Of a DNA stretch of 64,000 nt, positions 19,832 to 24,981 are shown in pieces. Under the pieces are notes generated by a model. It ran no database searches. It saw only the letters and a list, made by a program, of their open reading frames with translations, and was not told the DNA's origin. The stretch covers positions 119,241-183,240 of the forward strand of contig NZ_EQ973631.1 of NCBI RefSeq assembly GCF_000157915.1, given 5' to 3'. Origin of the DNA: Phocaeicola coprophilus DSM 18228 = JCM 13818. GTDB lineage: Bacteria > Bacteroidota > Bacteroidia > Bacteroidales > Bacteroidaceae. The translations under genes and the position numbers were made by a program. Position 1 is the first letter of the stretch; each line of letters opens with the position of its first letter.

Positions 19832-21106
19832 TTATTCTTTCTGCTCCTTTTTGAAATATTCATATCCGATGCGGCAGTAAAGACATTTCTTGGAGTCGCA
19901 GTAATTCTTTTTCAGTTGGATGAGAGCCTGACTGTCACCTGCATGAGCAGCCTTCAGTCCACATTCTTCCCACATGCGGGTGATGTAATTGTTTTCCGGT
20001 TTCAGATCTTCCAGCAGCTGGCTGGCCCGGTTGCAGAGCTGTTCTTCTCCTTTATGCTTTCCGTAGGCATAGAGGAAAGGAACCACCGTGTTGATGATCA
20101 GCAGGTCGATGGAACTCTGACTGAGCGTTTTGGGGTGGGAGGGCGAAGGCTGTCCGAAGACATAATGGGTCAGCCAGTAGACAGATGTTCCTCCTTTGAA
20201 TATTTCCCGAAGCTCCTGCAAGGTTTCCAGTTCCATCAGCCGTGAGAACATCCCCTGTGAACGGTGGTACAGACAGGCCAGCTGTGCGATGCGTACATGC
20301 GGAAAATTTCCCGGACGCATGCGGAGAAACTTCCAGCGGCAGTCTTCGGCAGGAGTCAGATCGAACTTATGAGCCAGATAAGCATATTCCTTCATAAGTT
20401 TTTCCGTATAGTCATCGGCAGGAAGTTCCTGTAAGAGTCCGGCCTGTCCGAAGAAGATTGCTTCAATCTGGAAAAGGTCATCCCGATGCTTGTTGACGGC
20501 TGCCAGAGGGATATGTTTGGCCCAAAGCTCAAATGCATCACTGTTTACTCCAAACCCGAAATTACGTGCCAGTGTCACAAAGAAAGCGCCTTCCCAGCTG
20601 CGGTCACAAAAATCCAGCCGTTGAAAAATCTGCTGGGTTTTCTGTTCGAAACGTTCCGTCTGCAGACTGGAGAGCCAACTGTGAAGGAGGAAGGGCGACA
20701 AATGCGGGATCAGCCGGTAGCAGGCCGGATAATGGCTTGTCTGGATCAGTTCCTGGTAGTTTTCAAGCAAGTAGGGCGGATAATGCAGTTCAAGTTGGGG
20801 GATCGGTTCTCCGTTGGTGCGCTTCACTTCGGCATCAATGTCGGAGGCCGCATGCAGAATGACCGAATCGTAAGTCGGATCCTGGTCGTGGTGATGGCGT
20901 TTCCAGTCGGAAGCACGCTCATGAATTTCCACATTTCCCACCCAGATCACTCCGTCCAGTTTGATTTTTGCATTGAAGAAGTCAGGACCGGCATCCGGAT
21001 TGGAGAGTCCGGGATCAATAATTTCCACTTTCTGTCCTGTGGTCGTGTGCAGAGGTTTTAGCGGGAAAAGCTTGTGTTTCCATACGTAATGTAAGAGTTG
21101 TTCCAT
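19832..21106 (-). CDS. DUF2851 family protein
   Basis: A 424-residue protein recognised by its N-terminal block: EQLLHYVWKHKLFPLKPL at the start, IDPGLSNPDAGPDFFNAKI near 30, and VGNVEIHERASDWKRHHHD near 56. The D-A-G-P-D-F, N-V-E-I-H and histidine-rich elements look like a restriction-endonuclease-like fold (inference; no function is established). There is no signal peptide. The family is common in Bacteroidetes. The C-terminus has a Cys-rich end (CDSKKCLYCRIGYEYFK), perhaps metal-binding. Confidence 0.85.
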   Translation of the reverse strand: MEQLLHYVWKHKLFPLKPLHTTTGQKVEIIDPGLSNPDAGPDFFNAKIKLDGVIWVGNVEIHERASDWKRHHHDQDPTYDSVILHAASDIDAEVKRTNGEPIPQLELHYPPYLLENYQELIQTSHYPACYRLIPHLSPFLLHSWLSSLQTERFEQKTQQIFQRLDFCDRSWEGAFFVTLARNFGFGVNSDAFELWAKHIPLAAVNKHRDDLFQIEAIFFGQAGLLQELPADDYTEKLMKEYAYLAHKFDLTPAEDCRWKFLRMRPGNFPHVRIAQLACLYHRSQGMFSRLMELETLQELREIFKGGTSVYWLTHYVFGQPSPSHPKTLSQSSIDLLIINTVVPFLYAYGKHKGEEQLCNRASQLLEDLKPENNYITRMWEECGLKAAHAGDSQALIQLKKNYCDSKKCLYCRIGYEYFKKEQKE

Positions 21107-21158
21107 GTTAACGAGGTGTAAATGTTGCCTAAATGTAATGATTAATACTGAAAAACAC

Positions 21159-21166
21159 TATCTTTG
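21159..21166 (+). promoter_or_regulatory. Putative -7 element for the dapB-lepB operon
   Basis: TATCTTTG matches TAnnTTTG 22 bases before the dapB ATG at 21189, supporting that start over the upstream in-frame codons. No TTG is seen at -33. Confidence 0.5.
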
Positions 21167-21188
21167 CGTTGAAAATTATCAGAGAATT

Positions 21189-21944
21189 ATGAAAATAGCA
21201 TTGATTGGATATGGAAAGATGGGTAAAGAGATTGAGAAAATTGCTCTTTCCCGCGGACATGAGATTGTGAGCATCATCGATATCAATAATCGTCAGGATT
21301 TTTCTTCCGAAGCTTTTCGCTCGGCAGATGTTGCCATTGAGTTTACGGCACCTTCTGTAGCTTACGGCAATTGCCTGGAAGCTTTCAAGAATGGTGTAAA
21401 GGTGGTTTCCGGAAGTACAGGATGGATGGGAGAACACGGTGACGAAATGCGCCGTCTGTGTCAGGAAGAAGGAAAGACATTGTTCTGGTCCTCCAACTTC
21501 AGTCTGGGAGTAGCCATTTTCTCGGCTGTCAACAAATACCTGGCCAAGATTATGAATAATTTCCCCAACTATGATGTTTCGATGGTGGAAACCCATCATA
21601 TTCATAAACTGGATGCACCGAGCGGTACAGCCATCACACTGGCCGAAGGCATTCTGGAAAATCTTGACCGTAAGCAGAAGTGGGTATCCGGAACATTGAC
21701 CGCTCCTGACGGTACGGTCAGCGGAACAACCGACTGTGCTCCCGATGAGTTGCCGGTCAGTGCTGTCCGCAGAGGCGAGGTTCCGGGCATTCATACCATC
21801 AAATATGAGTCGGATGCCGATTCTATCATCATTACACACGATGCCAAGAACCGCAGCGGCTTCGCGCTGGGTGCCGTACTGGCGGCTGAATATACAGCCG
21901 GACATACAGGTTTTCTGGGTATGAACGATTTATTTCCTTTCTGA
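21189..21944 (+). CDS. dapB: 4-hydroxy-tetrahydrodipicolinate reductase
   Basis: DapB reduces the dihydrodipicolinate precursor with NAD(P)H on the way to meso-diaminopimelate and lysine, so it feeds peptidoglycan synthesis. The 251-residue protein starts MKIALIGYGKMGKEIEKIAL with the nucleotide-binding glycine motif. The substrate-binding segment THHIHKLDAPSGTAITLAEG lies near 137-156. The C-terminal block includes RRGEVPGIHTIKYES and HDAKNRSGFALGAV. It is the first gene of an operon with two signal peptidase-like genes and a WbqC gene; lepB follows after 2 bases. Confidence 0.97.
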   Translation: MKIALIGYGKMGKEIEKIALSRGHEIVSIIDINNRQDFSSEAFRSADVAIEFTAPSVAYGNCLEAFKNGVKVVSGSTGWMGEHGDEMRRLCQEEGKTLFWSSNFSLGVAIFSAVNKYLAKIMNNFPNYDVSMVETHHIHKLDAPSGTAITLAEGILENLDRKQKWVSGTLTAPDGTVSGTTDCAPDELPVSAVRRGEVPGIHTIKYESDADSIIITHDAKNRSGFALGAVLAAEYTAGHTGFLGMNDLFPF

Positions 21945-21946
21945 TT

Positions 21947-23371
21947 ATGATACAGGCCTCACGTAGACAATGGATAAAGTTTGCCGTCGTTCTGGTGCTT
22001 TATCTGATTTTCCTGCTTTGGTTGCAGAGCTGGCTGGGACTGATTGTGGTTCCGTTTATCTTTGATGCTTATATCTCGAAGAAGATTCCATGGACCTGGT
22101 GGAAAAAGTCGAAAAACAAGACGGTGGTAACAGTCATGGGATGGGTAGACGCCATTGTATTTGCGCTGGTTGCCGTTTATTTTGTCAATCTGTATTTTTT
22201 CCAGAACTACGTCATCCCGTCTTCTTCACTGGAGAAATCTTTGCTGGTAGGCGATTATCTGTTTGTCAGCAAGATGAGTTACGGTGCCCGTATTCCGCAG
22301 ACTCCGCTCCATGTGCCCTTGACTCAGCATACCCTGCCCATATTCGGATGCAAATCTTATCTGGAATGGCCCGAATGGGATTACAAGCGTGTCAGCGGAC
22401 TGGGTGAGGTACAGCTGAACGACATCGTGGTGTTCAACTTCCCCGCAGGCGACAGCGTAGCGACCGGTGTACCGGCAGAAGATCTTTACCGCTTGAGTTA
22501 TCAGGCAGGAAAGGGCTTGTCACAACCGGTTGATATGTCCCGGCTGACTCTGGAACAGGAACGTGAGGTATATGACTATTATTATGCCGCAGGGCGGAAA
22601 TACATTGATGAGAATCCGCAGATATATGGCAAGATCGTTTCCCGTCCGGTGGACCGTCGGGAGAATTACGTGAAGCGCTGTGTGGGCCTTCCCGGACAAA
22701 CCCTGCAGATCAAGGACCGCATCATTTATCTGGACGGAAAGCCGAATAAGGAGCCGGACAATGTCCAGTACCGTTATCTGGTTTATACAAAGGGCATGCT
22801 GCCTGATGATCTCTGCCATGAGCTGGGTATCAGCGTAGAAGACCGTGAAATTTATTATTCCGAAGAATCCGCCTATAATATGCCGCTGACGGAAAAGGCA
22901 AAGGCTGCTCTGCTGGCGCGGAAAGATCTGGTGACTGCCATTCATGACGTGCCTGATGACGATGCCGGCGGACTGTATCCCGTCAACAAGAATACGGGAT
23001 GGACTGTAGACAACTACGGTCCGGTATGGATCCCGAAGAAAGGAGCCACCATCGATCTGACGCTGGACAACCTGCCGGTCTATGAACGGCCGATCCGGGT
23101 GTATGAAGGCAATCAGCTGGATGTGAAAGACGGACGCATTTATATCAACGGACAGGAAACCACGAAGTATACTTTCCGCATGGATTATTACTGGATGATG
23201 GGCGATAACCGCCACAATTCTGCGGATTCCCGTTTCTGGGGTTTTGTTCCTGAAGATCATATTGTCGGTAAACCGATCTTTGTTTGGCTTTCACTGGATA
23301 AAGACCGCGGATGGTTTGACGGAAAGATCCGCTGGAACCGTCTGTTCAAATTTGTAGATTCAATCAAATAA
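21947..23371 (+). CDS. lepB: Signal peptidase I, catalytically complete copy
   Basis: It cleaves signal peptides from exported proteins at the outer face of the inner membrane. The 474-residue protein has hydrophobic segments at about 10-40 and 59-86, then the S26 boxes. Box B is VIPSSSLEKSL with nucleophile Ser94, box D is ENYVKRCVGLPGQTL with general base Lys243, and box E is WMMGDNRHNSADSRFWGFV near 430. Large insertions between boxes B, D and E explain the length and are usual in Bacteroidales. It is followed after 4 bases by a paralogue lacking the dyad. Confidence 0.95.
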   Translation: MIQASRRQWIKFAVVLVLYLIFLLWLQSWLGLIVVPFIFDAYISKKIPWTWWKKSKNKTVVTVMGWVDAIVFALVAVYFVNLYFFQNYVIPSSSLEKSLLVGDYLFVSKMSYGARIPQTPLHVPLTQHTLPIFGCKSYLEWPEWDYKRVSGLGEVQLNDIVVFNFPAGDSVATGVPAEDLYRLSYQAGKGLSQPVDMSRLTLEQEREVYDYYYAAGRKYIDENPQIYGKIVSRPVDRRENYVKRCVGLPGQTLQIKDRIIYLDGKPNKEPDNVQYRYLVYTKGMLPDDLCHELGISVEDREIYYSEESAYNMPLTEKAKAALLARKDLVTAIHDVPDDDAGGLYPVNKNTGWTVDNYGPVWIPKKGATIDLTLDNLPVYERPIRVYEGNQLDVKDGRIYINGQETTKYTFRMDYYWMMGDNRHNSADSRFWGFVPEDHIVGKPIFVWLSLDKDRGWFDGKIRWNRLFKFVDSIK

Positions 23372-23375
23372 ACTT

Positions 23376-24293
23376 GTGCGAAACGGACGTTGGCTAGTCT
23401 GGCTGAAAGCAATCGGCGGCGCACTGGTCGCCGTATTGCTGGTTAAGACTCTGTTTGTCACCTCTTGTTTCATTCCTTCCTCCGGGATGGAGAACAGTCT
23501 CTATCAGGGGGAAGGCGTGCTGGTGGGCAAATGGAGTTACGGTCTTCGTCTGCCTTTCCCGTCGTTGCTGGGTTATCACCGCCTGGGAGCTTCTCCGGTG
23601 GAGCGGGGAGACATCGTACTGTTCAATAATCCCAACCCGGCCGATTCGGAAACGGGAATTGAGTGGCGTGAGGTTTTTATCAGCCGTTGTGTCGGGCTGC
23701 CGGGAGATACCCTTTCGCTCAACCGTGCACTGACCGTCACCGGAAATCAGGCCTTGAGCCCGGACAGCAAGGCGCTCTATGTCTATCCGTCTTCTTCAGA
23801 AGATCTGATGCAGGCCGTTCTGGAAACTCTGGGACTGCTGCCCGGCAATACACTGGTGAGCTATACGTCTGATGGCGGTTATGTCCGCAGTTTCAGCCAT
23901 TACGAGTTCTATCTGGTTTCCCAGAAGTTGGAAGGCCGGATTCCTGTTGTTCCGCTCGACAGCCGTATCTCTCAGGAAACACATCCGTTTGTCGTACCCC
24001 GCAAGCAGGTTCCGGTAAAAGTTTATCCCTGGAATGCTGTGCTTCTCTGCAATACCATTGTACGTCATGAGCATAAGCAGGCCGGTGTGCAGGGAGACAC
24101 ACTTTATGTGGAAGGCCGTCCGGTGGGAGAATATACCTTCAGCAAGGACTATTACTGGATGGCTTCCAACGATCCGGTCAATCTTTCCGATTCTCGTTTG
24201 TTTGGCTTTGTGCCCGAAGATCACCTGATCGGGCGTGCCCTGCGGATATGGTATCCGGCAAGAAAGGGACGTTTCCTGCAGCGGGTGCAATAG
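23376..24293 (+). CDS. Signal peptidase I homologue lacking both catalytic residues (putative pseudoenzyme)
   Basis: The 305-residue protein clearly belongs to the S26 family: one N-terminal membrane helix (9-30), ERGDIVLFNNPNP near 77, SRCVGLPGDTLSL at 103-115 and SDSRLFGFVPEDHLIG near the C-terminus. However the nucleophile position is Gly37 (CFIPSSGMENSL; codon GGG at 23484) and the general-base position is Ser103 (FISRCVGLPGD; codon AGC at 23682). The box E GDNR is replaced by SNDP. The frame is intact with normal codon use, so this is not decay. The start is GTG at 23376, 4 bases after lepB. A non-catalytic partner or regulator of LepB is the simplest reading; S. aureus SpsA beside SpsB is a precedent for an inactive neighbour. 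Confidence 0.88.
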   Translation: MRNGRWLVWLKAIGGALVAVLLVKTLFVTSCFIPSSGMENSLYQGEGVLVGKWSYGLRLPFPSLLGYHRLGASPVERGDIVLFNNPNPADSETGIEWREVFISRCVGLPGDTLSLNRALTVTGNQALSPDSKALYVYPSSSEDLMQAVLETLGLLPGNTLVSYTSDGGYVRSFSHYEFYLVSQKLEGRIPVVPLDSRISQETHPFVVPRKQVPVKVYPWNAVLLCNTIVRHEHKQAGVQGDTLYVEGRPVGEYTFSKDYYWMASNDPVNLSDSRLFGFVPEDHLIGRALRIWYPARKGRFLQRVQ

Positions 24294-24324: not shown

Positions 24325-24981
24325 ATGAAGAAAGAAGTGATATTGGGGTCCGCTTATCTGGGACCGGTGGAGTATTATACCAAACTCTTTGCTTACGATA
24401 CGGTCCGTGTGGAGCGTTATGACCATTATATGAAGCAGACCTATCGCAACCGTTGTGTCATTGCTTCGGCCGACGGCCCGCTGGCGCTGACCATTCCGAC
24501 GGAGAAGGGAGATGATGCCAAGTGTCTGATGAAGGATATCCGCATTTCCGATCACGGCAACTGGAGACATGTACACTGGAATGCCTTTGTGGCAGCCTAT
24601 CGTCACAGCCCTTTCTTTGATTACTATGCCGATGAGTTTCACCGTTTCTTTGAGGAGCGTTACACCTGGCTGTATGATTTCAATGCTGAGCTGTGCAGCT
24701 GGGTATGTGAGCAGATTGATCTTCAGCCCCGGATTATCCCTACGGACGATTATCTGCCGGTATCGGAAACGGCCGATGATTTCCGTGAACGGATCCATCC
24801 CAAGCGGCTGCCGCAGGAAGCCGATCCGGACTTTGTTCCGAAAGCCTATTATCAGGTATTCGATGCCCGGCTGGGTTTTCTTCCTAATCTCAGTATTGTC
24901 GATTTATTGTTTAATATGGGACCCGAAAGCCTGCTGGTGTTGCGTGATAGTACGGTCGGTTCATCCCAATCTTCCCGTTGA
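24325..24981 (+). CDS. WbqC family protein
   Basis: A 218-residue cytoplasmic protein starting MKKEVILGSAYLGPVEYYTK, with WbqC-family hallmarks: EHYDHYMKQTYRNRC-like segment near 40 (read here as ERYDHYMKQTYRNRC), LTIPTEKGDD near 62 and WRHVHWNAFVAAYRHSPFFD near 84-103. WbqC genes occur in O-antigen clusters and elsewhere and the biochemical activity is not established. It is the last gene of the dapB-lepB-lepB' operon, 31 bases after the pseudo-peptidase gene. The ATG at 24325 marks the start of family similarity; the longer frame upstream overlaps the preceding gene. Confidence 0.85.
   Translation: MKKEVILGSAYLGPVEYYTKLFAYDTVRVERYDHYMKQTYRNRCVIASADGPLALTIPTEKGDDAKCLMKDIRISDHGNWRHVHWNAFVAAYRHSPFFDYYADEFHRFFEERYTWLYDFNAELCSWVCEQIDLQPRIIPTDDYLPVSETADDFRERIHPKRLPQEADPDFVPKAYYQVFDARLGFLPNLSIVDLLFNMGPESLLVLRDSTVGSSQSSR

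Follow-up and report, generated by a model that had tools for sequence, protein, structure and literature searches.

A signal peptidase paralogue lacking the Ser/Lys dyad behind lepB in Phocaeicola coprophilus and other Bacteroidales, a candidate accessory subunit of signal peptidase I

Bacterial signal peptidase I is usually treated as a self-sufficient enzyme. A 64,000-nucleotide stretch of Phocaeicola coprophilus DSM 18228 = JCM 13818 (contig NZ_EQ973631.1, positions 119,241 to 183,240; the window, that is, the whole stretch of DNA analysed) carries, directly behind its intact signal peptidase gene lepB, a second gene of the S26 peptidase family (lepB-prime), in whose product both catalytic residues are replaced. 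A few S26 proteins of this kind have been described. For example, SipA of Streptococcus pyogenes is without the catalytic Ser and Lys (Asp48 and Gly85) and has Asn and Arg at the equivalents of Gly272 and Ser278 of E. coli, two residues which adjoin the catalytic Lys; its peptide cleft is reported to be kept, and the protein to be essential for pilus polymerisation (PMC4049620). Likewise, SpsA of Staphylococcus aureus is described as being without two conserved catalytic residues and as dispensable (PMC12445088). In eukaryotes, Spc2/SPCS2 and other accessory subunits of the signal peptidase complex are described as non-catalytic and as modulating substrate and site selection (PMC11579918, PMC13385932). 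Among the open-access papers listed by text searches, three of them limited to the best 15 of 19, 15 of 40 and 12 of 14 papers, none described a lepB-adjacent family of dead S26 proteins.

The second protein differs from LepB at the catalytic positions. When the second genes and LepBs of 81 loci (the window and 80 Phocaeicola/Bacteroides-type loci) were aligned jointly, the column of the nucleophile, Ser94 of LepB, was found to hold Gly in 81 of 81 second genes against Ser in 80 of 80 LepBs, one LepB being cut at a contig edge and uncounted in this and the next column. The column of the general base, Lys243 of LepB, holds Ser in 72, Asn in 6 and Gly in 3 of the second genes and never Lys, against Lys in 80 of 80 LepBs. 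Box E reads GDNR in all 81 LepBs; where it starts with Gly (Gly272 of E. coli), the second genes have Ser in 64 cases and Ala in 17, never Gly, and the equivalent of Ser278 is always hydrophobic, being Leu in 47, Ile in 17, Val in 14, Met in 2 and Phe in 1. An earlier note on the window, made from its letters alone, had placed Gly37 and Ser103 at the nucleophile and base positions, read SNDP for GDNR in box E and described an unbroken frame 4 bases behind lepB. These readings stand: the two residues fall in the columns of Ser94 and Lys243, SNDP occupies residues 264-267 and the reading frame begins after the end of lepB at 23371. The loss of Ser and Lys is fixed among these orthologues, and an intact dyad occurs in none of the 81 second genes. 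The remark of the earlier note that the other conserved boxes are intact is right only in part: besides GDNR, the Ser278 equivalent is also replaced throughout. The features concerned are as follows.

23376-24293, + strand: second S26 gene (lepB-prime), 305 amino acids, GTG start (open reading frame and translation, PF10502, TIGR02227)
21947-23371, + strand: lepB, signal peptidase I with intact Ser94/Lys243/GDNR, 474 amino acids (open reading frame, Pfam, joint alignment)
23382-23453, + strand: N-terminal helix of the second protein, residues 3-26, presumed lone membrane anchor (helix predicted by AlphaFold2)
23484-23486, + strand: Gly37 codon GGG at the catalytic Ser position (joint alignment column)
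23682-23684, + strand: Ser103 codon AGC at the catalytic Lys position (joint alignment column)
24165-24176, + strand: box E, residues 264-267, SNDP replacing GDNR (joint alignment)
21105-21944, + strand: dapB, first gene of the kept neighbourhood (Pfam DapB_C/DapB_N)
24325-24981, + strand: wbqC-like gene 3' of the second S26 gene (Pfam WbqC, 1.3e-33)

The residues by which an active type I signal peptidase is recognised, namely the box B Ser, the box D Lys and Gly272/Ser278, are thus all missing from the second protein. As the Ser/Lys dyad is absent, the protein cannot cut by the Ser/Lys mechanism, and going by its sequence it is almost certainly not a Ser/Lys signal peptidase. It might still be an enzyme that uses other catalytic residues, and the polar residues R171, E177, Q183, H231 and E232, which lie outside the dyad, are nearly invariant in the 81 loci. 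However, a 17-row order-wide alignment has all five outside its invariant and nearly invariant columns, Gly stands in place of the nucleophile and the general base has been lost, and we consider this explanation very improbable.

Despite these replacements, the second protein is a member of the S26 superfamily by descent, both in its profile matches and in its fold. It matches Pfam Peptidase_S26 (PF10502) at 3.5e-23 (82.8 bits, curated cut-off 22.9) and TIGR02227, signal peptidase I, at 3.4e-21 (75.8 bits, curated cut-off 47), and its closest solved structures by sequence are those of E. coli signal peptidase I. The neighbouring LepB, encoded in the same operon, is a paralogue (BLASTP E=7e-27, 26% identity with large gaps); the two have their boxes in common apart from the catalytic ones, whereas LepB has Ser94/Lys243/GDNR, extends further at its N-terminus and carries longer inserts. 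The genome of the window also has, on another contig, a third S26 gene (L262; contig C72, 7000-10500) with a 297-amino-acid frame, Ser, Lys and box E GDNG, which probably encodes a second active signal peptidase.

Among the described systems, SipA/LepA of the streptococcal pilus clusters (S. pyogenes, PDB 4n31) is a near counterpart of the second protein. The two share the S26 fold, and the dyad and the equivalents of Gly272 and Ser278 are replaced in both. The cap domain of SipA is reported to be much smaller than that of E. coli LepB (PMC4049620). In contrast to SipA, whose gene is described within a sortase pilus cluster of gram positive bacteria, the second gene lies 3' of lepB in a gram negative phylum, together with dapB and wbqC. 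SpsA, which the earlier note had offered as precedent, resembles it, as described, in being inactive while its host species also has an active S26 protein (SpsB), just as the second gene stands beside an intact lepB; spsA adjoins spsB in S. aureus. The Bacteroidales copies differ from SpsA in forming an order-wide lineage with many different replacements. SipA is the better precedent because its non-catalytic function was tested. Relative to the known dead S26 proteins, the differences here are the phylum, the steady place behind lepB, how old and widespread the lineage is, the many kinds of replacement and the shrinkage in some genera.

Within the genus the second gene is consistently maintained. 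When 60 genomes of the window's genus were sampled, 59 proved to have a close orthologue (E 6.6e-85 or better). The one without it (G009) has a completeness of 79% and yields no match better than 1e-11, and its assembly may therefore be missing the lepB locus. The gene order of the window is dapB, lepB, second S26 gene and wbqC. In the 80 other loci the frame of the second gene is open in every case, lepB lies upstream and wbqC downstream on the same strand in every case, and 78 of them have dapB on that strand too, both exceptions being short stretches. The distance from the lepB stop to the second-gene start is 4 nucleotides in the window; across the 80 loci, the median distance from that stop to the closest in-frame start is 12.5 nucleotides (range -13 to 207). 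The ratio of nonsynonymous to synonymous substitution rates (dN/dS), calculated for 72 pairs with dS of 0.1-1.2 in both genes, has a median of 0.100 for the second gene vs 0.048 for lepB. The extremes of single pairs are 0.69 and 0.43, respectively, the former from a pair (L133/L157) that looks saturated and was kept among the 72. Moreover, 52 columns of the second gene have an entropy under 0.11 across the 81 loci. The Gly that replaces the nucleophile is encoded in 80 orthologues by GGC (42), GGT (21), GGA (9) and GGG (8); as all four codons are in use, the residue seems to be held constant by selection and not simply by descent. In Bacteroides and Phocaeicola the second gene is, on this comparative evidence, a fixed pseudoenzyme under purifying selection, and it very probably has a retained function there. 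The non-catalytic role proposed in the earlier note is to this extent well supported by the fixed substitutions, the open frames and the low dN/dS.

The same arrangement extends far beyond the genus. An order-wide set was read from high-scoring matches to a wider profile, with frames under 130 amino acids excluded; the 62 copies sorted came from 30 order-level loci (five of them dropped, four as the window's own kind and one as a duplicate), 18 further regions, the locus L063 and 20 lepB loci of Bacteroidaceae. Forty-nine copies lie directly 3' of an intact lepB in other Bacteroidales, and 43 of these are without Ser at the nucleophile position, where the letters are Q (14), G (7), S (6), N (5), A (4), E (3), K (3), R (2) and T, C, D and H (1 each), with one gap. 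These 49 span Bacteroidaceae (f1) and, since only high-scoring matches were read, at least 19 further families of Bacteroidales. None of the 49 has Ser, Lys and Gly272 together, vs 7 of 8 copies in stretches without lepB, a contrast that is suggestive only, since the rows are related, were picked by score and are not phylogenetically independent, and a LepB was counted only if Ser and Lys were present. Five other copies, three just upstream of lepB (two of these partly unreadable) and two farther away in the same stretch, show no Ser and Lys. Outside the order, all 29 copies in the 27 loci read from a phylum-wide search (L189-L215) have both Ser and Lys. In one family (f18), three genomes (G368, G302 and G416) have lepB flanked by S26 copies on both sides; the upstream copies (L270 3-632, L276 2-787 and L278 770-2107) keep GDNR and have Ser at the Lys position in both that are readable there, two being cut by an edge and partly unreadable.

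The age of the duplication could be read from a tree of 69 rows, from which the catalytic columns had been removed and three long non-S26 frames excluded. The LepBs form one clade (support 100/99) with the second genes outside it, and the duplication is therefore old; a recent tandem duplication in each lineage was rejected on the same ground. In the best tree the second genes have a single origin, but the branch that sets them apart has weak support (66/24; 70% of 200 bootstrap trees). At minimum, dyad intactness changed twice on this tree and the nucleophile letter 14 times. The best explanation of the origin would be an old duplication of a signal peptidase gene within or before Bacteroidales, with the copy kept 3' of lepB thereafter.

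What has been kept in the second protein, besides its fold, is most of the cleft residues. Eleven positions, which we take to form the S1/S3 pockets of E. coli LepB, have a mean entropy of 0.49 vs 1.45 over all 303 columns, and a fraction of 0.0005 of random draws is as low. All 81 second genes have Ile33, Pro34, Met38, Arg104 and the D-S-R of box E. Most of the residues lining the S1/S3 cleft are thus kept in the alignment, as is the N-terminal helix, which is the single helix (residues 3-26) predicted at the N-terminus by an AlphaFold2 model built on 46 rows (predicted local distance difference test score, pLDDT, 78.2; predicted template modelling score 0.70). VIA-align of this model gives Z 8.1-9.4 over 124-138 residues with E. 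coli LepB, 8.3 with SipA (4n31) and 6.0 with the human signal peptidase complex paralogue A (7p2p_A). Foldseek points to the same family (E 2.5e-06), with a poor global superposition (template modelling score about 0.3). The cleft loops of box B and box E have a pLDDT under 50. A collapsed active site might be read from this, but the reading was rejected: the LepB control model (33 rows, pLDDT 60.5) is poor overall and also low at the same boxes, and low confidence at these loops is therefore uninformative. In the model the cap domain (residues 124-198) takes a small alpha/beta form, for which VIA-align gives Z of about 5-7 with unrelated domains, among them PII-like proteins and a segment of DNA polymerase II; these matches may reflect merely a common arrangement.

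As most cleft residues and the presumed anchor are kept, the gene is under purifying selection and its linkage to lepB is lasting, the simplest account of the second protein is that of an accessory subunit. We infer a partnership with LepB, in which the second protein would sit in the inner membrane beside LepB and face the periplasm. Its cleft, unable to cut, could bind the c-regions of signal peptides or early mature parts of pre-proteins, or LepB itself, or both. In this manner it may hold, present or time the release of some exported proteins and so tune the signal-peptide step. That the second protein is a dead S26 protein acting as a non-catalytic, membrane-anchored binding or accessory subunit of the LepB step is slightly favoured in our judgement; for an accessory role linked to LepB, taken by itself, the chances are about even. 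The resemblance to Spc2/SPCS2 would be one of working only, an analogy to the proposed role with no claim of shared origin. The second protein might instead be a decoy or inhibitor of LepB: a dead copy might compete for pre-proteins or form inactive dimers with LepB and thereby limit cleavage. Most cleft residues are kept without the dyad, and the gene adjoins lepB, with which it is probably co-expressed; the present data, however, fit helping and hindering LepB alike, and a hindering role appears to us distinctly improbable.

Several observations weigh against a role of the second protein at the LepB step. In terms of distribution, of the 151 genomes and 22 genera of the family, only 42 genomes and 6 genera have a match to the second protein of the window at E 1e-30 or better. 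Among 20 lepB loci (L242-L261) from Bacteroidaceae genomes with no close match or with a divergent one, 15 have an S26 remnant 3' of lepB with the dyad gone, one of them (L257) weakly matched. The stop-to-stop frames of the remnants measure 281, 275, 255, 247, 240, 228, 226, 217, 198, 187, 164, 156, 147, 142 and 136 amino acids, and the shortest are without much of the domain between the boxes. Behind the intact lepB of the other five (L252, L255, L256, L258 and L261) no second gene was detected, and the protein is therefore dispensable in some lineages; eroded or undetected beside an intact lepB, it is not needed for signal-peptide cleavage as such. The decay by frameshift that the earlier note named as refuting its reading is absent from the close relatives, but erosion does occur in other genera of the family.

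Such erosion is what would be expected of a vestigial gene, which lost its job with the dyad and is in slow decay or is kept only through an operon with wbqC. The nucleophile letter, having changed at least 14 times, and a dN/dS about twice that of lepB point the same way. On the other hand, the near-universal presence of close orthologues in the genus, with open frames throughout, and a median dN/dS of about 0.10 together with the 52 low-entropy columns are not the marks of decay, and we hold a vestige to be improbable.

The conservation of the cleft has limits of its own. Three of the eleven positions differ in kind from LepB (Tyr to Cys, Asn to Leu/Val/Ile and Leu to Met), so the ligand, if any, may differ; further, cleft residues also carry the fold, and their conservation is no proof of ligand binding. 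SipA, for comparison, is described as keeping its peptide cleft, and in the second protein it is the conservation of the cleft columns that suggests the same. The loss of the dyad is also less uniform across the order than among the close relatives. Although no lepB-adjacent copy keeps the full set of Ser, Lys and Gly272, the base position is Lys in 6 of the 49, and Ser and Lys are both kept in two (L182, 1498-2544; L268, 1944-2882); both of these have Asp at Gly272 and look like intermediates toward a dead enzyme. Lastly, the mirror-tree partial correlation of the second gene over 78 loci is 0.53 with LepB, 0.53 with WbqC and 0.11 with DapB. With equal values for LepB and WbqC, the mirror-tree does not point to LepB; the roles that the earlier note offered as examples (LepB partner, substrate chaperone or regulator) are candidates only.

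These mirror-tree values are equally at home with the strongest rival, a SipA-like chaperone for particular exported clients, for example of a surface fibre or lipoprotein pathway, which would be unrelated to LepB and adjacent to lepB merely as a leftover of tandem duplication. SipA and the second protein are altered at the same set of positions, and the model matches the SipA structure. However, the immediate neighbours, which were the only ones surveyed, are dapB, lepB and wbqC in 78-80 of 80 loci with no pilus cluster, and the gene is directly 3' of lepB in the 49 copies of other Bacteroidales as well. A chaperone independent of LepB is an unlikely explanation, though a serious one. A link to the Q-rule of Bacteroidetes was set aside too: Gln after the cleavage site is described for the whole phylum (PMC5837995, PMC10653852), whereas the second gene is undetected in 5 of the 20 other Bacteroidaceae loci.

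Among the open-access papers listed for transposon or essentiality data (in one search the best 12 of 14), nothing concerned the second gene. One study counts signal peptidase once, and its gene BT1549 is a predicted lipoprotein (PMC11878027). Another assigns lepB in B. thetaiotaomicron to BT0667, which may be either copy (PMC10434189). As for the surroundings of the locus, a DUF2851 gene at 19832-21106 is divergent from dapB.

For annotation, the second gene implies that matches above the curated cut-offs of PF10502 and TIGR02227 need not be signal peptidases. For the biology of Bacteroidales, an old family of dead copies beside lepB makes the question of an accessory subunit of bacterial signal peptidase testable in tractable gut commensals. 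It is a tentative possibility that the Bacteroidales signal peptidase is a two-part machine, in which LepB would work with a dedicated pseudo-peptidase subunit, the product of an ancient duplication, whose task would be to recognise or present exported proteins. In some other Bacteroidaceae this subunit would have shrunk to a short membrane-anchored remnant and then been lost. If this were true, the pair would follow, in a bacterium, the same logic as the signal peptidase complex of eukaryotes.
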